In this document: positions 35,227 through 44,440 of the stretch, piece after piece
Layout: the number at the start of each line of letters is the position of its first letter
How positions within the stretch are numbered: the stretch's first letter is position 1
DNA from: Thermoplasmatales archaeon SW_10_69_26
GTDB lineage: Archaea; Thermoplasmatota; SW-10-69-26
Reading direction: 5' to 3'
Assembly: GCA_003009755.1 (NCBI GenBank)
Contig: PXUB01000032.1
Span: forward strand, 1-64,000
DNA length: 64,000 bases
Notes under the pieces: model-generated
Database searches by the model: none
What the model saw: the letters and a program-made list of their open reading frames with translations, nothing else
Told to the model about the DNA's origin: nothing
Program-made: the position numbers and the translations under genes

Positions 35227-36621
35227 ATGAGCCCGCCCGACCCCTGGTCGAGGTTCCCGGAGGGGGCGCTCGACGCCGTCGAGGTCACCGACGGCCAGGC
35301 CCGCGTCCTCGACGACAAGCGCGTCCGCGAGGACCTGGTCGGTCCGCTGGTCACCGTCGCCACCTTCGCCGCCGGGGAACGCAAGGCCACCGCCCAGGCC
35401 CTGATCCGGTCGTTGGCGCACGAGGTCGGCATCGAGGAGGCCTCGATCCACGAGCTGTACCGCGCCCGGGGACGAGGCGAGGTCGAGGGGTTCACCGTGC
35501 CGGCGATGAACCTCCGCACGATGACCTACGACATGGCCCGAGCTGCCTTCCGCGCCGCCGAGCGCGAGGACGTGGGCGCGCTCGTCTTCGAGATCGCCCG
35601 CAGCGAGATCGGGTACACCGGTCAATCGCCGGCCGAGTACGCCAGCGCCGTCCTCGGCGCCGCGATCCGCGAGGGCCACCGCGGCCCCGTGTTCCTGCAG
35701 GGCGACCACTTCCAGTTCGATCCCGAGGCCGTGGCGGAGGACGCCGACGCCGAGCAGGCTCGCATCGACGACCTCGCCGAGGAGGCGATCGAGGCCGGGT
35801 TCTACAACATCGACGTCGACGCCTCCACGCTCGTCGACCTCGACGAGGCGGACGTGGCCGACCAGCAACGCCCCAACGTCGACCGCACGCTGACCACGCT
35901 GGCCCGGATCCGGTCGCTGGAGCCGGTGACGGTGAGCGTCGGCGGCGAGGTCGGCGAGGTCGGCCTCGAGACGACGACCGAGCCCGAGCTGCGGGTCTTC
36001 CTCGAACAGCTGGACGACGGCTGCCAGCAGCGGGGCCTGGAGGGCATCAGCAAGGCCAGCGTGCAGACGGGCACCCAGCACGGCGGCGTCGTGCTCCCCG
36101 ACGGATCGTTGGCCGAGGCCGACGTCGACGTCGAGGCCGTGCGGCGCCTGTCGCGCCTGGCCCGCGAGCACGGTTTGGCCGGGTGCGTCCAGCACGGCGC
36201 CTCCACGCTGCGGGACGAGCTGTTCGCACGGTTCCCGGAGGCCGGCGCCGCCGAGATCCACCTGGCGACCGCCTTCCTCAACCTCGTCCTCGACCACGAG
36301 GCCTTCCCCGGCGAGCTGACTCGCCGCATCGAGGAGCACCTGGACGAGCATCTCGCCCACCGGCGCACGCCGGAGGCCACCGACGAGCAGTTCGTCTACC
36401 GCCACCGCAAGCGCGCGATGGGAGCCCTCAAGGAGCCGATGTGGCGCGTGGCCGAGGACCGCAAGCAGGCGATCTTCGCCGACCTCGAGGAGCGGTTCTC
36501 GTTCCTCTTCGACGAGCTGGGCGTCACGGGCACCACCGACACGGTCGACACCTACGTCACGCCGGACCCGGTCGAGCCCACCGTCCCCGAAGCGTGGCGA
36601 GCCGACCTCGCGGGCCGGTGA
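35227..36621 (+). CDS. Class II ketose-bisphosphate aldolase
   Basis: 464 residues. The class II aldolase zinc and substrate motifs are recognisable in an expanded form: LQGDHFQFD (zinc His), GFYNIDVDASTL, GGEVGEVG (zinc Glu), and CVQHGASTL (last zinc His). It is longer than Escherichia coli FbaA or GatY and resembles the long aldolases of Chloroflexi and actinobacteria. Placed four bases before the Pfk-2 gene, it most probably cleaves fructose-1,6-bisphosphate to triose phosphates. A tagatose-bisphosphate preference cannot be excluded. Confidence 0.8.
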   Translation: MSPPDPWSRFPEGALDAVEVTDGQARVLDDKRVREDLVGPLVTVATFAAGERKATAQALIRSLAHEVGIEEASIHELYRARGRGEVEGFTVPAMNLRTMTYDMARAAFRAAEREDVGALVFEIARSEIGYTGQSPAEYASAVLGAAIREGHRGPVFLQGDHFQFDPEAVAEDADAEQARIDDLAEEAIEAGFYNIDVDASTLVDLDEADVADQQRPNVDRTLTTLARIRSLEPVTVSVGGEVGEVGLETTTEPELRVFLEQLDDGCQQRGLEGISKASVQTGTQHGGVVLPDGSLAEADVDVEAVRRLSRLAREHGLAGCVQHGASTLRDELFARFPEAGAAEIHLATAFLNLVLDHEAFPGELTRRIEEHLDEHLAHRRTPEATDEQFVYRHRKRAMGALKEPMWRVAEDRKQAIFADLEERFSFLFDELGVTGTTDTVDTYVTPDPVEPTVPEAWRADLAGR

Positions 36622-36625
36622 TCGC

Positions 36626-37570
36626 GTGCCCGACCGAGAAGAGATCGTCACCCTGACGCTCAACCCGGCCCTCGACCAGGTCTGCTGGGTCGACGAGATC
36701 GAGGAGGAGGTCAAGATCCGCGCCCACGGGTCCTCCTTCGAGCCCGGCGGCGGCGGGATCAACGTCGCTCGCGCGCTGCACCAGCTCGACGTCGAAACCA
36801 CCGCCTACTGGTCCCAGGGCGCCGAGACCGGCCACATGATGGGTCGCCTGCTGGACCAGGAGGGCGTCGACCACCACCCCGTGGACATCGAAGCCACGAC
36901 CCGCGTGAACCTCGCCGTGTTCGCCGACCACAACGGCGACCGCGAGCTGATGTTCAACATGCCCGGCGCCCCCCTCACCGCGGACGAGGTGGACCGTTGG
37001 CTGCACGTCGTCGACGGCATCGACGCCCGGTTCGCCGTCCTCAGCGGCAGCCGCCCGCCCGACAGCGGCCACATCTACGGTCAGATCACGCGCCAGCTCA
37101 CCCGGCGATCGAAGGTCATCCTGGACACCAGTGGCCCGGGCCTCGAGCAAGCCCTCGAGGAGGGGGTGTTCCTCGCCAAGCCCAACCGCGAGGAGCTGAT
37201 CGCCCTCGCCGGCCGGGACGCGGCGACCCCCAGCGGTCTCGAGGCAGCCGCTCGGGACCTGATCGAGACCGGCATGGCCGAGATCGTGGTCGTCTCCCTG
37301 GCCGGCGAGGGGGCCCTGGCGGTGACCGATGGCGGCAGCGTGCGCGTGGATGCCCCGGTCGTCGAAGCCAAGAGCAACGTCGGCGCCGGCGACAGCATGG
37401 TGGCCGGCCTGACGCGCAAGCTCTCGGGCGGGTTCCAAGTCGAGGAGGCGGTCCGCTACGGGGTGGCGGCCGGCGCCGACGCCGCCCGCCGCCCCGGGAC
37501 CGAGCTGTGCACGCGTGACGGCGTGCGAGAGCTACTCGCCGGCACCACGCTGCACCGGTCCCTCCCGTGA
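36626..37570 (+). CDS. pfkB: 6-phosphofructokinase, Pfk-2 type (PfkB family)
   Basis: 314 residues, strikingly close to Escherichia coli Pfk-2: TLTLNPALD, FEPGGGGINVARAL, the MPGAPLT segment, AKPNREEL, and the catalytic NVGAGDSMVAGLT, ending GVAAGADAARRPGTELC. It phosphorylates fructose-6-phosphate with ATP. 1-Phosphofructokinase is the main alternative, but the Pfk-2-like pattern is closer. GTG start with GGTGATC ahead of it; 4 nt after the aldolase gene. Its 3' end overlaps the convergent pgk gene by 39 nt. Confidence 0.9.
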   Translation: MPDREEIVTLTLNPALDQVCWVDEIEEEVKIRAHGSSFEPGGGGINVARALHQLDVETTAYWSQGAETGHMMGRLLDQEGVDHHPVDIEATTRVNLAVFADHNGDRELMFNMPGAPLTADEVDRWLHVVDGIDARFAVLSGSRPPDSGHIYGQITRQLTRRSKVILDTSGPGLEQALEEGVFLAKPNREELIALAGRDAATPSGLEAAARDLIETGMAEIVVVSLAGEGALAVTDGGSVRVDAPVVEAKSNVGAGDSMVAGLTRKLSGGFQVEEAVRYGVAAGADAARRPGTELCTRDGVRELLAGTTLHRSLP

Positions 37571-39379
37571 GCGCAACGCCTCGACGGCCGGCAGATCCTC
37601 GCCCGCCAACGCCGACAACAGGGCACCGCCCGCCAAGGAGACGTGATCGAAGCGATCCCGGGGCACGCCCAGCTGGGTTATCGCCTGCACCGTGTGACCG
37701 CCGCCGATGACGCTGTAGGCGTCGGCCTTGCCGGCGGCCGAGAACACCCGGTGGGTGCCCCGGTCGTAGGGCGTCTCCTCGTAGACGCCCATCGGGCCGT
37801 GCACGAGCAGCGTGCCGGCGTCGTTGGCGTGGTCGGCGAAGCTGTCGGCCGTGTCCTTCCCGATGTCGCGGATCCGGCCCCGGGCCGGCAGCTCGTCGAC
37901 GGGGACCTCGAAACGGTCGCCGTTGCGGTGGACCGCCACGTCGGTCGGCAACCGGATCCGGTCGCCGTAGGTGTCGAAAAGCGAGCGGGCCTGGCGGCCG
38001 TGCTCGCGGTAGCCGTGCTCCTCCAGCAGGGCTCGGGTGCCTTGCCCGGTGTTGACGCCGTCGGCTTCGAGGAACGAGGCCGCCAACAGGCCCCCGACGA
38101 GCACCTCGTCGACCCGGTCGCGCGCCAGCTGGTAGGCCATCGCATCCAGGCTCGCGCCCGGCTTGGCGCCGCCGAGCACGGCCACCCGCGGCTCGTCCTG
38201 GCGGCCGACGCGTTCGAGCGCCTCCAGCTCGGCCAACAGCCCCGGCCCGGCGAGGGCAGGCAGCAGTTCGGGGAACCCGACCAGCGAGGCGTGCGAGCGG
38301 TGGCACGCCGGGAACGCCTCGTTCACGAACACGTCCACCCGCGAGGCCACCGCCTGCACCCAATCGCGCCGGGCGTGCCCGCCGGGGCTGATGTCGGACA
38401 TCTCGCCCTCGGCCCGGCGCACGTTGCCCAAAAGCAAGACCTCGCCCGGCGCCACCGATCCGGCGGCCTCGAGCGCCCGATCGTCGTCGATCGCCTCGAC
38501 GTGGTCGACGGGGACCGCCAGCCTCTCGTCCAGGATCGCGGCGTGCTGGCCCAAGTCGAGGAAGTCCTCGCGCCCGGGGCGGCCTTGGTGGGCGAGGACG
38601 ACGACGCCGGCGCCGCGGTCGAGCAGCGTCTGGATCGTGTCCGCGGCCGCTTGCAACCGATCGCGGCCGACGATCCGGCCGTCCTCGACCGGCTCGTTGA
38701 CGTCCACCCGCAACAGGACGCGTCGATCCGTCAGCTCGGCGTCGTCGATCGTCGCCAGCAACCCGCTGGCGGCCTCGACCTCGGTCGGGGTCGGCGTCGG
38801 CACGCGCGCGCTCCGGCCGTCCTCGGCGTCGGTTCGGATCACGTCCAGCACGCGGCGAGCCAACAGCCCCAGCACCGGCTTGACGAAGCCGGTCCACCGG
38901 CTCAGGCGCTGGCGCCCGGTCTCGTCCAGGCCGCGGGCGCGGGCCTCCAGCACGAGCAGGCAGTTGTCCCCGTGGCGTTCGTGGATCGACAAGGACACCA
39001 CGCCCTTGGCGCCCGAGCCGGTGTGGGCCAGGAACCGTTCGGGGGTGAGGCTCTCGACGAGCTCGAGCGGGTTCCAGAACCGGCCCACGAGCCCGACCAC
39101 GATCTCGCGCCCGGGGGCCTCGGCCAGCGGGACGCAGGCGGGGTGGTCGAGCAGGTCGCCGACCGTCGTGTCGGGGGCGATCGGTTCGCGGTCGCCGGAC
39201 TGGAGGAAGGACAGCGCCATCTGCGGGAGCTCGCGCAGCCACGTGGCCGCGGCCAGCAGCTGGTCGTCGCCGATCTGCGCCGGCCGGATCGCCTCGTAGA
39301 CCTCGTCGGCGGGCGCGTCGACGGCGACCGAGCGCACCAGGCGCACGTCGTCGTCGGGGAGGAAACGATCGTTGAGCAT
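37532..39379 (-). CDS. pgk: SRPBCC domain fused to phosphoglycerate kinase
   Basis: 615 residues, about 200 more than a normal PGK. Residues 1 to about 190 look like an SRPBCC (START/polyketide-cyclase) helix-grip domain: VRSVAVDAPADEVYEAI at the start, FWNP.. in the middle, and the final long helix LSRWTGFVKPVLGLLARRVL. From about residue 215 the PGK begins: RRVLLRVDVNEPV, LAHQGRP, EVLLLGNVRRAEGE, VNEAFPACHRSHAS, AVLGGAKPGASLD, and SVIGGGHTVQAIT. The reading frame is continuous and both halves have good codon use. Makes ATP from 1,3-bisphosphoglycerate. Same operon as GAPDH, 24 nt downstream of it. Confidence 0.88.
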   Translation of the reverse strand: MLNDRFLPDDDVRLVRSVAVDAPADEVYEAIRPAQIGDDQLLAAATWLRELPQMALSFLQSGDREPIAPDTTVGDLLDHPACVPLAEAPGREIVVGLVGRFWNPLELVESLTPERFLAHTGSGAKGVVSLSIHERHGDNCLLVLEARARGLDETGRQRLSRWTGFVKPVLGLLARRVLDVIRTDAEDGRSARVPTPTPTEVEAASGLLATIDDAELTDRRVLLRVDVNEPVEDGRIVGRDRLQAAADTIQTLLDRGAGVVVLAHQGRPGREDFLDLGQHAAILDERLAVPVDHVEAIDDDRALEAAGSVAPGEVLLLGNVRRAEGEMSDISPGGHARRDWVQAVASRVDVFVNEAFPACHRSHASLVGFPELLPALAGPGLLAELEALERVGRQDEPRVAVLGGAKPGASLDAMAYQLARDRVDEVLVGGLLAASFLEADGVNTGQGTRALLEEHGYREHGRQARSLFDTYGDRIRLPTDVAVHRNGDRFEVPVDELPARGRIRDIGKDTADSFADHANDAGTLLVHGPMGVYEETPYDRGTHRVFSAAGKADAYSVIGGGHTVQAITQLGVPRDRFDHVSLAGGALLSALAGEDLPAVEALRSREGPVQRGAGE

Positions 39380-39403: not shown

Positions 39404-40426
39404 TCAAGCGGTCTCCTGATCCCACATGTCCATGACGAGATCCGCGGTGCGCACGCTGTAGCCCCACTCGTTGTCGTACCACGAGAGGACCTTGACCATG
39501 CGCTCCTCGCAGACCTTCAGGCTCGGCGCGTCGACGACCGCGCTGTAAGGGGTCGTCTGGTAGTCGACGCTCACCAGCGGCTCGTCCTCGACGCGCAGGA
39601 TCCCCGCCAGCTCCTCGTCGGCGGCCTCGCGGTAGGCGGCGGTGACCTCGTCGGCGCTGGCGGTGTCGTTCATCCGCACGGTGAGGTCCACGACGGAGAC
39701 GTTGGGCACCGGTACCCGGATCGCCATCGCGTCGAGGCGGCCCTCCAGCTCCGGCATGACGGACCCGATCGCCTTGGCCGCCCCCGTCGAGGTGGGGATC
39801 ATCGAGACGGCGGCGGCGCGGGCGCGCCGCAGGTCGTCGTGCTCCCGGTCGAGGAGGACCTGGGAGTTCGTGTAGGCGTGCGCGGTCGTCACGAGGCCGT
39901 GCTGGATCCCGAACCGGTCGTGCAGGACCTTGGCGGTGGGGCCCAGGCAGTTCGTCGTGCACGAGCTGTTCGAGACGAGGCGATCCTCGCCGGGGTCGTA
40001 GGTGTCGCCGTTGACGCCGAGGACGAGCGTGGCGTCGACCTCGTCCTTCGGCGGTGCCGACAGCACGACGCGGTCGGCCCCGTTGTCGAGGTGGGTCTGC
40101 AGATCCGCGCGGTGCCGGAACTGGCCGGTGCACTCGATCACGTAGTCGACGTCGAACTTGTCCCAAGCCAGGTTGCTGGGATCGGGTTCGGAGAGCACGT
40201 GGAAGTGATCCCCGTCGATGACGAGGTCGCCGTCGACGAGCTCGACCTCGCCCTCGTAGGTCCCGTGCAGGCTGTCGTGCTTGAACAGGTGAGCCAGCGT
40301 CTCGTTGTCGGTCAGGTCGTTGATCGCGGCGATGTCGATCGGGTCCTCGTGGTCCAGCAGCGCCCGCAGCGCCAGGCGACCGATGCGTCCGAACCCGTTG
40401 ATCGCGATCCGAGGAGCCCGCGGCAT
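39404..40426 (-). CDS. gap: Glyceraldehyde-3-phosphate dehydrogenase, bacterial type
   Basis: 340 residues of the phosphorylating NAD(P)-type enzyme of bacteria, not the archaeal GAPDH. INGFGRIGRLALRAL is the nucleotide-binding start, SNSSCTTNC carries the catalytic Cys, AHAYTNSQ the catalytic His region, and SWYDNEWGYS the C-terminal signature. Leaderless start 27-31 nt after TTAAT. First gene of the gap-pgk operon, supplying the 1,3-bisphosphoglycerate that PGK uses. Confidence 0.95.
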   Translation of the reverse strand: MPRAPRIAINGFGRIGRLALRALLDHEDPIDIAAINDLTDNETLAHLFKHDSLHGTYEGEVELVDGDLVIDGDHFHVLSEPDPSNLAWDKFDVDYVIECTGQFRHRADLQTHLDNGADRVVLSAPPKDEVDATLVLGVNGDTYDPGEDRLVSNSSCTTNCLGPTAKVLHDRFGIQHGLVTTAHAYTNSQVLLDREHDDLRRARAAAVSMIPTSTGAAKAIGSVMPELEGRLDAMAIRVPVPNVSVVDLTVRMNDTASADEVTAAYREAADEELAGILRVEDEPLVSVDYQTTPYSAVVDAPSLKVCEERMVKVLSWYDNEWGYSVRTADLVMDMWDQETA

Positions 40427-40484: not shown

Positions 40485-42893
40485 CTAGCGGGCCAAGCGG
40501 ACGCTGTCGCCCTCGCCGATCCGGCGCACATCCTGCTCGAGCCCGATCTCCACCGGATCGCGGCCGGCGGCGTGCGAGGTGACGGCCACCTCGTCCTCCC
40601 GGACGCGTGCCTCCAACAGGTGGCCGCGGTACCGCAGCTCGACGGACACCGACTCCAGCGGGTCGGGGAAGGCGGGGTCGAAGGCGAGCACGTCCTCGGC
40701 GACCGACAGACCGGTGTAGCCGCGCTGCACGAGATCGATCGCGCCCGTCATCGAGCCCAAATGGATGCCCTCGTGCGTGGTGCCACCCTGGATATCCTCC
40801 ACGTCGGCGTCCAGGGCCCGCTGGAACAGCTGCCAGGAGCGGTCCGGGTCCAGCTCGGCCAACGCCCAGGCGTGCAGGAAGTAGCTCAGCGTGGATCCAT
40901 GCGAGGTCCGGTCGATGTAGTACTCCACGTTGCGAGGGATGTGGGCCTCCGGATCGAAGCTGTAGCCCAACCGGTCGAAGATGCCGGCCAACCGGTCGGG
41001 GGAGAACAGGTAGAACAGCATCACCACGTCGGGCTGCTTGGACGCCTTGTAGCGGTTCGCGTCGTCGTCCTCGGCCTCGAGGATGCGGTCCAACCGCTGG
41101 ATATCGTCGTAGCGCTCTTCGTAGCCCTCCCAGTCGAACTCCTCCAACCGGTGGTAGCCCTCGAACTGGCTGACGAGCCCGTCGTCGGCGATCGGGACGA
41201 ACAGGTTGCGGCTCACCTCGTCCCAACGATCGAGCTCGTCGTGCGTGAGCCGCAGCTTCTCCACCAGCTCGGCGCTGCGGTCCTTGGGCAGGATGTCGAG
41301 CACGTCCAGCCCCCGCTCGAGGCACCAGGCGGCCATCACGTTCGTGTACGCGTTGTTGTCCAGGCCCGGCTCGTCGCGCCACGGGTAGCGAGTGTGGTAC
41401 TCGTCGGGGCCGACGACACCGGTGATCTCGTAGGCGCCGCGCTCGTGGTCGTACCCGGCGAAGCTCGCCCAGAACCGAGCGATCGACAACAGCATCTCGG
41501 CGCCGTACAGCGCCAGGAACTCCATGTCGCCGGTCACGTGGTAGTGATGCCAGACGCTGTAGGCGATGGAGGCGTTGATGTGCCGTTGCAAGTGCGTCTC
41601 GTCGGGGATCCAGCGCCCCGAGCGCGGGTTGAGGTGCAGCTGTTGGCTCTCCTCCTCGCCGTTGGAGCCGCTTTGCCAGGGGAACATCGCGCCCTCGTAG
41701 CCCTGCCGGCGGGCGCGGCGCCGAGCCTCGTCGAGGCGGCGGAACCGGTAGCGCAGAAGCGAGCGAGCGATCTGCGGCACGTGGAAGTTCAGCGTCGGGA
41801 ACACGAACATCTCGTCCCAGAAGATGTGGCCGCGGTAGGCCTCGCCGTGCCAGCCGCGCGCCGGCACGCCGACATCGAAGTCGGTCGTGTGGAAGCTGGC
41901 GGTCTGCAGCAGGTGCAAGATGTGCAACCGCAAGGTGCGGGCCACACGGGCCTGCTCCACCGAGCCCGAGACGCCGACCTGCAGCCCGAAGCGACCCCAC
42001 AGGTGCCGCCAGTGCGTCGTGTGCCGGGTGTAGAGGTCCAGGAACCGCGGGGCGCGCGCGAGCTCGCGCTCCACCTCGTAGCCCGGCTCGGACGTCGCAG
42101 GGTCCCGCCCGGTGTACATCGAGCAGATCTTCTCGACGCGCACCGGTCGGCCCTCCCCGACGTGGACCGGGAACCGCTGGCGGACGCGGTCCTCCTCGGT
42201 GTCCGTCTGGCGAGCCGGTTGGATCGGGGATCCGTCGCGGTAGGCCTTCGTGCGAGCGGCTTGGGCCACCCGCACCCGGGAGCGATCGGTGTGGGTGAGA
42301 AGCCGCATCGTTTCGGCGTCCGCCATGTCGGTCCCGATCGGGTCCAGGTGCTGGCTCTCGAGATCCTGGTAGCGTTCGACGTTGGCGTTCTCGACCGTGC
42401 CGTCGATGGCGGTCTCGACCTGGATCTGGCCCGACCAGTCGAGCGGTTCGACGACCATCTGCTGCGCGGCGCGGTGGGGGTTGGCCATGCTGACGATGCG
42501 CCGGTTGACGAGCTTCGTCGTCCGGTCCTGGTCGTCGCGGAAGCGCACGCGGCGCGTCAGCATCGCGGTCTCGAGGTCGAGCACCTTCTCGTAGTCGAGG
42601 ACGTCGACCTCCTCGAGCCGGAACCAGGGGCCCCCGGCGGCGCGGAACGTGATCGGCAGCCAGTTCGGCATGTTGACGAGATCCTCGTTCTGGATCTCCT
42701 GGTCGAGCTTGACCGACGTCTGCCGGTCGTAGCCGCCGGCGAGGTACGTGCCCGGGTAGTGGACGTCGTCGGCGCTGGCCTCCGGCTCGGCACCGCGCGT
42801 GCACACGTAGCCGTTGCCGAGCGTCGTGAGCGCCTCGCGCAGCGGTTGCTCGTCGGGCGAGAACCCGCGGTAGCCGAACGTCCACCCGTTCAC
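40485..42893 (-). CDS. GH65 disaccharide phosphorylase
   Basis: 802 residues of glycoside hydrolase family 65 (trehalose, maltose, kojibiose or trehalose-6-phosphate phosphorylase). The domain begins FGYRGFSPDEQPLREALTTLGNGYVCTRG; the (alpha/alpha)6 barrel carries GWHGEAYRGHIFWDEMF, MFPWQSGSNGEE, the general acid in GVVGPDEYH, and the phosphate-site DRTSHGSTLS. These enzymes invert, giving or using beta-glucose-1-phosphate. GTG start with GGAGGG before it, overlapping the upstream HAD-OtsB gene by 4 nt. Which disaccharide it uses cannot be read from sequence; the OtsB fusion upstream points to trehalose or its 6-phosphate. Confidence 0.9.
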   Translation of the reverse strand: MNGWTFGYRGFSPDEQPLREALTTLGNGYVCTRGAEPEASADDVHYPGTYLAGGYDRQTSVKLDQEIQNEDLVNMPNWLPITFRAAGGPWFRLEEVDVLDYEKVLDLETAMLTRRVRFRDDQDRTTKLVNRRIVSMANPHRAAQQMVVEPLDWSGQIQVETAIDGTVENANVERYQDLESQHLDPIGTDMADAETMRLLTHTDRSRVRVAQAARTKAYRDGSPIQPARQTDTEEDRVRQRFPVHVGEGRPVRVEKICSMYTGRDPATSEPGYEVERELARAPRFLDLYTRHTTHWRHLWGRFGLQVGVSGSVEQARVARTLRLHILHLLQTASFHTTDFDVGVPARGWHGEAYRGHIFWDEMFVFPTLNFHVPQIARSLLRYRFRRLDEARRRARRQGYEGAMFPWQSGSNGEEESQQLHLNPRSGRWIPDETHLQRHINASIAYSVWHHYHVTGDMEFLALYGAEMLLSIARFWASFAGYDHERGAYEITGVVGPDEYHTRYPWRDEPGLDNNAYTNVMAAWCLERGLDVLDILPKDRSAELVEKLRLTHDELDRWDEVSRNLFVPIADDGLVSQFEGYHRLEEFDWEGYEERYDDIQRLDRILEAEDDDANRYKASKQPDVVMLFYLFSPDRLAGIFDRLGYSFDPEAHIPRNVEYYIDRTSHGSTLSYFLHAWALAELDPDRSWQLFQRALDADVEDIQGGTTHEGIHLGSMTGAIDLVQRGYTGLSVAEDVLAFDPAFPDPLESVSVELRYRGHLLEARVREDEVAVTSHAAGRDPVEIGLEQDVRRIGEGDSVRLAR

Positions 42894-44440
42894 GAGGGGC
42901 CCTCCAGCGTCCCCGCGATCGCGTCGAGGAAGGCCCGCACCGCCTCGGGGCCGGCCAAGCCGTAGTCCGCGAACGTCGGGCGGCCCTCGCCGCTCACGAG
43001 CACGCCGATCCCCTGCGGGAGCGCGTGGAAGGCGTCCTCGTCGGTGACGTCGTCGCCGACGTACACGACCGGCGTGTGGCGAGGATCGACGTCGAGCTGG
43101 TCGAGCAGGTGCTCGACGGCGCGGCCCTTGTCCCAGTCGACGTCCGGGCGCAGCTCGCGGACCCGCTTGCCGGGCGCGATCCGCAGCTCGGGGCTCTCGC
43201 CGGCCACGGCTTCCACGGTGCCACGCACGCGCTCGACCTGCCCGTCGGGGACCTGGCGATCGTGCACCGCCAGGGAGAACGGCTTGGGTTCGAGCACGAG
43301 CCCGTCCACGTCGCCCAGCTCGTCCTCGATCCGTTCCCGGGCGGCCTCGAGCGCGGGGACGAGGTCCTCGGCGACCCCGTGACGGGTGCGCTCGCCGCCG
43401 GGTTCGCGGATCTCCAGCCCGTGGCTGCCGGCGTAGATCAGCTCGTCGAGCCCGACGCGCTCGCGGACGTCGTCCAGCCCGCGCCCGCTGACGACCGCCA
43501 CCGGGCACCGCTCGGCCAGGCGAGCCACCGCCGCCCGCATCTCGTCGGAGATCGCGGCCCGATCCGGGTGCTCCACGATCGGCGACAGCGTTCCGTCGAA
43601 GTCGAGGAACACGACCGGGCGGTGCCGATCGACGCGCTCGAGGATCTCGTCCGCCGCGAGCGCGTCCGGCCGATCGGCGGGATCGCGGACGGGCACGTCG
43701 ATCTCGTCGAGGCTCGCGACGACGCGATCGGCCCCGCTGTCGGCCAGCGCCTGGGCGTGCCCGACCCGGTCGACACCGACGACGAGGCCGAACCCGCCGC
43801 GCCGGGCGGCCTCGACACCGGCCGCCGAGTCCTCCAGCACGAGGCAGCGCTCGGGCGCCGCCACCATGCGGCGGGCCGTCTCCAACAGCGTCTGGGGCGA
43901 GGGCTTGCCGGCCAGCCCCTCGTCGGCGGCCACGATCCCTCCGACGACGACGTCGAACCGCTCGCCCAGGCCCGCCGCGGCCAGGACCCGGCGAGCGTTG
44001 CGGCTGGCCGAGAACAGCCCCGCCGGGATCTCGGCCTCCGCCAGGTCGTCGAGCAGGGCCGTGGCGTCCTCGTGGACGGTGACGCCCTCCTCGTCGAGCA
44101 GCTCGTGGAAGCGCTCGTTCTTCGCCTCCGCGATCGCTTCCACCGAAGCCAGCCCCGGCTCGTCGGCCGTCTCCGGCAGCTGGATCCCCCGAGACGCCAG
44201 GAAGTGACGGATGCCACGTCGGCGGGGTTTGCCGTCGACGTGCTCGGGGTAGTCCTCCTCGGTGTCGAAGGGCGCCAGGTCCTCGCCCTCCCGCGCGGCC
44301 CGCTCCTCGAGCACCCGATCGAAGATCTCCTTCCAGGCGAACGCGTGCAGCCGGGCCGTCTGGGTGATCACGCCGTCGAGATCGAACAGGACAGCGTCCG
44401 TCGACGCCGGGTCGACCGCGATCCTCGTATCCCGCGACAC
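42890..44440 (-). CDS. Beta-phosphoglucomutase-like HAD fused to trehalose-6-phosphate phosphatase
   Basis: 516 residues with two HAD domains. Residues 1 to about 245: VLFDLDGVITQTARLHAFAW, EHVDGKPRRRGIRHFLASRGI and LEDSAAGVEAARRGGFG, the subgroup of beta-phosphoglucomutases found beside GH65 enzymes. Residues about 270-516: VFLDFDGTLSPIVEHP, VVSGRGLDDV, YAGSHGLE, LEPKPFSLAVHDR and YVGDDVTDEDAF, a full OtsB phosphatase. Together with GH65 the order and total size resemble the single-chain mycobacterial OtsB1 (HAD-OtsB-GH65), here split in two. GTG start 26 nt after CATAGTG. Confidence 0.9.
   Translation of the reverse strand: MSRDTRIAVDPASTDAVLFDLDGVITQTARLHAFAWKEIFDRVLEERAAREGEDLAPFDTEEDYPEHVDGKPRRRGIRHFLASRGIQLPETADEPGLASVEAIAEAKNERFHELLDEEGVTVHEDATALLDDLAEAEIPAGLFSASRNARRVLAAAGLGERFDVVVGGIVAADEGLAGKPSPQTLLETARRMVAAPERCLVLEDSAAGVEAARRGGFGLVVGVDRVGHAQALADSGADRVVASLDEIDVPVRDPADRPDALAADEILERVDRHRPVVFLDFDGTLSPIVEHPDRAAISDEMRAAVARLAERCPVAVVSGRGLDDVRERVGLDELIYAGSHGLEIREPGGERTRHGVAEDLVPALEAARERIEDELGDVDGLVLEPKPFSLAVHDRQVPDGQVERVRGTVEAVAGESPELRIAPGKRVRELRPDVDWDKGRAVEHLLDQLDVDPRHTPVVYVGDDVTDEDAFHALPQGIGVLVSGEGRPTFADYGLAGPEAVRAFLDAIAGTLEGPS

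Follow-up and report, generated by a model that had tools for sequence, protein, structure and literature searches.

We identified in an archaeal genome a gene that joins an N-terminal domain, probably of the SRPBCC type, to a complete phosphoglycerate kinase (PGK) in one open reading frame, a fusion that hints at a built-in sensor or tether on a glycolytic enzyme and that was seen in one genome only. The gene lies on contig PXUB01000032.1 of Thermoplasmatales archaeon SW_10_69_26, inside the 64-kb stretch of DNA that was analysed (the window), and its parts are as follows.

37532..39379, minus strand: fused gene, 615 aa, SRPBCC-like domain, linker and PGK (open frame, GC3)
38810..39379, minus strand: N-terminal SRPBCC-like (DUF2867-related) domain, residues 1-190 (full-length homologues, hhalign to DUF2867)
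38753..38809, minus strand: linker, residues 191-209, ARVPTPTPTEVEAASGLLA, with possible internal starts at GTG193 and TTG207 (sequence, GC3)
37568..38752, minus strand: complete archaeal-type PGK domain, residues 210-604 (Pfam, conservation, tree)

The frame extends for 623 codons from stop to stop with no internal stop codon, and the two domains are separated by a low-complexity Pro-Thr linker. The G+C content of third codon positions (GC3) is 0.93-1.00 in each 40-codon block up to residue 560 and drops to 0.85 and 0.75 at the extreme 3′ end, where the convergent gene overlaps. Across residues 150-250, 30-codon windows gave GC3 values of 0.90-0.97 in the coding frame and of 0.70-0.87 and 0.37-0.67 in the other two frames. 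Because a frameshift or an intergenic stretch would break this pattern, the uniform GC3 indicates that a single coding frame, with no shift, runs through the junction near 38750. An initial annotation of this DNA had described a continuous frame of 615 codons at 37532-39379, and this was confirmed, with exact coordinates, minus-strand orientation and GC3 uniform over the junction. The gene fusion, which is represented by one draft genome, is almost certainly genuine and belongs to the archaeon.

The PGK half matches the full length of the Pfam profile PF00162 (residues 211-594, profile positions 1-379 of 379, E 1.6e-91), and its nearest solved structure is the archaeal enzyme 2cun from Pyrococcus (PMC7729029). 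Of the 53 alignment columns in which at least 85% of relatives agree, the fused PGK matches 51 and has conservative replacements in the other two (R for K and V for L). Residues of the substrate and nucleotide sites are present (R224, D226, N228, H264, R321, H360, R361, K406, G528, E534 and G559-G561), so that the earlier reading of the C-terminal part as a complete PGK holds, with the whole PF00162 profile covered and the key residues kept. On this residue conservation we reject a catalytically dead PGK, and the fused PGK is very probably an active enzyme; judging from the kept residues and the gene order, we infer that it would run in the glycolytic, ATP-making direction. His527 (window positions 37799-37801) takes the place of the usual Asn in the N-G-P-M-G motif. 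The orthologue in G001, the one other genome of the same family that was compared (from a different genus), has this His too. Only one or two of 74 relatives show it, and it may be a sign of altered kinetics in the fused paralogue. No triosephosphate isomerase (TIM) domain was found downstream of the PGK, which runs to the C terminus, and the match to NF010569 reached 242 bits against a cut-off of 883.

The N-terminal domain has no match of its own in Pfam or NCBIfam, and no Pfam match to a PAS domain was detected in the fused protein even at E 10. Searching plasmid records by tblastn returned 16 records with full-length relatives, the best from Halomontanus (34% identity over 98% of the domain, E 3e-17) and others from Haloterrigena, Halopiger, Natronococcus, Halorussus, Rhodococcus, Sphingomonas, Bartonella, Acetobacter and Fibrella; a second query added relatives in Erwinia, Pantoea, Burkholderia, Streptomyces and Embleya. 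The domain thus belongs to an uncharacterised family of ~190 aa spread over Actinomycetota, Pseudomonadota, Bacteroidota and haloarchaea, and its annotated bacterial members are stand-alone hypothetical proteins of ~174-206 aa. The fused protein starts with MLNDRFLP, close to the MLIDxYLP found in most relatives, and since the relatives align end to end and begin alike, residues 1-190 constitute a complete domain with its native start. A Y-W that hardly varies in the family is W-T here, a change that could mean relaxed constraint on the domain; most other family-wide residues are kept. The haloarchaeal relatives carry, after the N-terminal domain, a second domain of ~190 aa with weak resemblance to Polyketide_cyc2, and the family therefore does accept fusion partners. 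These haloarchaeal plasmid proteins with two SRPBCC-like domains (L093:2950-4317, L094:3001-4326, L095:2950-4323 and L096:1950-3317) are uncharacterised; L093 and L095 have a gene neighbourhood in common, which is shared in part by L096.

DUF2867 (PF11066) gave weak matches below its cut-off in 3 of 14 relatives (best E 0.04) and none for the fused domain. As the gathering cut-off was not reached, we regard the family as a remote relative of DUF2867 and not as a member. When a profile of the 14 relatives was compared with DUF2867 by hhalign, the alignment was collinear over 147 columns with a score of 46.7 and an E of 8e-7, whereas the controls reached at most 19.7 in 20 column shuffles, 13.8 with the reversed profile and 13.3 with PGK. 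DUF2867 also aligned (score 39, E 1.2e-5) with the haloarchaeal domain that resembles Polyketide_cyc2. We take DUF2867 to be a member of the Bet v 1-like clan of Pfam (SRPBCC superfamily). A single-sequence AlphaFold2 model of poor quality (pLDDT 45, pTM 0.43) starts with a strand, continues with helices and two long strands, and closes with a long helix at residues 153-186; top matches in a fold search with this model were mostly plant PYL receptors and norcoclaurine synthases, which have the Bet v 1 fold, and they were not significant (best E 0.16). A profile search of the domain against solved structures gave chance matches only. An SRPBCC-type fold is nonetheless predicted with good confidence, because the profile comparison ties the family to DUF2867 and the poor structure model points the same way. 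The initial annotation had placed an SRPBCC domain at the N terminus and had proposed structure prediction and a fold search as a check. A full-length domain with kinship to DUF2867 (E 8e-7) is borne out and Bet v 1-fold proteins dominate the fold search; at a pLDDT of 45 and a best E of 0.16, the fold itself is a prediction.

The genome is a 95% complete draft of 2.8 Mb in 49 contigs, the window being on contig 32, and its SSU rRNA is archaeal (1498 bits). It encodes a second, ordinary PGK on contig 2 that is 49% identical to the fused PGK. In the phylogenetic tree, the fused PGK and the partial PGK of G001 form a clade (support 100/99) that is sister to the ordinary PGKs of both genomes; the four PGKs of the two genomes group together (100/98) inside the class (100/99). 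This placement indicates that the PGK half is native and that the duplication is older than the separation of the two genera. Bin contamination as the source of the PGK is rejected on its position inside the class together with the archaeal rRNA. The end branches of the two PGKs in this genome are alike (0.35 and 0.36), so there is no sign of decay in the fused copy. The initial annotation spoke of a domain on a core glycolytic enzyme: the enzyme is indeed a PGK, but given the second, ordinary PGK it is a paralogue, probably serving sugar catabolism.

The fused PGK half is 51% identical to its nearest orthologue, and the fusion could be much younger than this divergence. The G001 copy starts at a contig edge at about residue 329; its 5′ part lies beyond the contig, giving no view of the fusion there. 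A profile search found the N-terminal family in none of the 389 other genomes of the phylum, which makes acquisition from outside the probable origin of the domain. Some genomes of the phylum had given weak hits to it; these were short, with E values of 0.004 or worse, and vanished when the profile was used. The domain was likewise absent from the viral contigs and phages that were scanned.

We looked for the same architecture elsewhere. In a phylum sampled around an alphaproteobacterial centre, the N-terminal family occurs in 9 of 399 genomes, in frames of at most 300 codons, which are too short to hold a PGK. Among PGK relatives fetched from genome contigs, a scan that reaches close relatives only, none matched beyond the PGK half, and a literature search retrieved no SRPBCC-PGK. 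The statement that no PGK with such a partner is known therefore stands for the genomes searched (the archaeal phylum and the alphaproteobacterial-centred phylum) and for the literature. The comparison of related genomes that had been suggested earlier gave a partial answer: the architecture was seen in none of the other genomes searched, and the sister copy in G001 is the truncated one that begins at about residue 329.

The neighbours of the fused gene in the window are listed here.

35227..36621, plus strand: class II aldolase-like protein, 464 aa (PF01116 E 4.5e-11)
36626..37570, plus strand: 1-phosphofructokinase-type hexose kinase, convergent with the fused gene (TIGR03168 261 bits, over cut-off)
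39404..40426, minus strand: type I (bacterial-type) glyceraldehyde-3-phosphate dehydrogenase (GAPDH), with the fused gene following after 24 bp (TIGR01534 416 bits, over cut-off; Pfam)
40485..42893, minus strand: glycoside hydrolase family 65 (GH65) protein, disaccharide phosphorylase-like (PF03632 E 1.3e-127)
42890..44440, minus strand: fusion of a beta-phosphoglucomutase-like HAD domain and a trehalose-phosphatase domain, 516 aa (TIGR02009, TIGR00685, Pfam)

On the minus strand the order is thus the HAD/trehalose-phosphatase fusion, GH65 (with a 4-base overlap), type I GAPDH and the fused PGK. By its gene content this appears to be one sugar-catabolism cluster, probably covering the route from the phosphorolysis of disaccharides to the PGK step that forms ATP. 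The HAD/trehalose-6-phosphate phosphatase protein and the adjoining GH65 may together make up an archaeal module for trehalose or disaccharide phosphorolysis. On the opposite strand, the 464-aa aldolase-like protein is divergent, with remote similarity to F_bP_aldolase and GatZ/KbaZ, and is paired with the 1-phosphofructokinase-type gene, whose 3′ end overlaps that of the fused gene by 39 bases (37532-37570). The type I GAPDH is the sole Gp_dh_C match in the genome; a GAPDH-II-like candidate is encoded elsewhere in it, below the cut-off of that family. No type I GAPDH was found in the other six of the seven genomes of the class (two of them only ~75% complete), suggesting that the gene was probably acquired horizontally.

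The frame, the domains, their homologies, the duplication and the gene order are observed. To account for them we prefer, by a modest degree of belief, a PGK of catabolic function whose acquired N-terminal domain binds a ligand and thereby modulates or places the enzyme. The PGK gene was duplicated in this family, as the tree shows, and one copy lies directly behind a bacterial-type GAPDH in a sugar-catabolism cluster; that copy carries, through the Pro-Thr linker, a complete domain, probably SRPBCC-like, of a widespread stand-alone family. Its PGK half would make ATP from the 1,3-bisphosphoglycerate of the adjacent GAPDH, and the N-terminal domain would bind a partner protein, a membrane lipid or a small ligand that is probably hydrophobic. 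That binding would modulate or place the catabolic isoenzyme, as the PAS domain does in the kinetoplastid PAS-PGK, leaving the ordinary PGK to a constitutive or gluconeogenic role. By analogy, some modulating or placing effect of the domain on the PGK is somewhat favoured. The narrower proposal, that it is an allosteric sensor in which a hydrophobic metabolite or lipid in the SRPBCC pocket switches the ATP-forming step or places it at the membrane, is tentative, and so is its corollary that a counterpart of PAS-PGK evolved independently in a prokaryote once the gene had been duplicated.

The fusion could also be real and its N-terminal domain a passenger that lends stability, solubility or an oligomerisation surface, or nothing at all, and responds to no ligand. 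The occurrence of the fusion in a single genome, the change of the conserved Y-W to W-T, and the fact that other archaea run GAPDH and PGK with no such domain would all fit a passenger, but the domain is complete, its coding signal is uniform and most other family residues have been kept while the PGK halves diverged to 51% identity; we consider this explanation doubtful, though it deserves serious attention. SRPBCC proteins include enzymes such as cyclases and hydratases, and the haloarchaeal relatives fuse the domain to a second SRPBCC-like domain, so that the N-terminal half might instead be a second catalytic module in a bifunctional protein with no regulation between its halves. However, no catalytic activity is known to us for the N-terminal family, and the sugar-catabolism neighbourhood offers no obvious substrate. 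Even with the PGK-TIM of Thermotoga as a bifunctional precedent (PMC7729029), a second catalytic module seems improbable.

Two further explanations, both very unlikely, would dissolve the fusion in practice or altogether. The halves could work apart if a stand-alone PGK were made from an internal start (GTG193 or TTG207) or by processing of the linker. A GGAG lies seven bases upstream of the in-frame GTG193, and the 3′ end of the 16S rRNA contains the CCTCC anti-Shine-Dalgarno sequence; at such high G+C, however, GGAG is frequent by chance, most other starts in the window lack the motif and, with no stop between the halves, translation from ATG1 must yield the fusion. A chimeric contig or a lost stop codon joining two neighbouring genes would be compatible with a draft genome in 49 contigs and with the absence of the architecture from the other genomes searched. 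Against such an artefact, a low-complexity linker joins the two complete domains in frame, GC3 does not change from one side of the join to the other, the sugar-catabolism gene order is coherent on both sides, and the tree puts the fused PGK in the same lineage.

PGK is among the most conserved enzymes and is usually a single-domain protein. If the N-terminal domain of the fused protein binds a ligand, it would show how an archaeon can build control into lower glycolysis after gaining a bacterial-type GAPDH, and a single recombinant protein would be enough to test this directly. Since the function of a domain can often be read from its fusion partners, the fusion would also offer a first functional lead on a widespread domain family of hypothetical proteins.

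Elsewhere the N-terminal family occurs as stand-alone proteins or, in haloarchaea, in tandem with a second SRPBCC-like domain, and no member was seen attached to PGK. Among prokaryotes, Thermotoga also encodes a PGK covalently linked to a second domain in a single frame, the PGK-TIM (NF010569), but its triosephosphate isomerase partner is C-terminal, whereas here the partner is N-terminal and the NF010569 match covers the PGK half only. In saccharolytic haloarchaea, a bacterial-type gapI and an archaeal pgk share an operon that serves glycolysis (PMC10817205). The archaeal cluster described here resembles that operon in setting a bacterial-type GAPDH beside an archaeal-type PGK for sugar catabolism; it differs in that the haloarchaeal operon has one amphibolic pgk, with no extra domain mentioned (PMC10817205), whereas here the PGK is duplicated, bears an N-terminal domain and belongs to another archaeal lineage. 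The closest parallel in architecture is the PAS-PGK of the kinetoplastids Trypanosoma cruzi, Leishmania major and Bodo saltans, in which ordinary PGKs coexist with the fusion and the PAS domain affects the activity of LmPAS-PGK, including its pH response, with haem raising activity by 20% (PMC7729029). Both are PGK paralogues with a small N-terminal domain of ligand-binding or sensor type, a type that is probable in the archaeal protein, a kept active site and ordinary PGKs alongside. Unlike the fused archaeal PGK, PAS-PGK is eukaryotic, has a domain of the PAS fold and family, is glycosomal or lysosomal in the parasites and has had its regulation measured. Because PAS-PGK is known, the idea of a sensor-domain PGK is not new, and an extra N-terminal ligand-binding domain on a PGK paralogue is of a kind already described in eukaryotes; what appears to be new is the type of domain on the PGK, the archaeal setting and the operon with a type I GAPDH.
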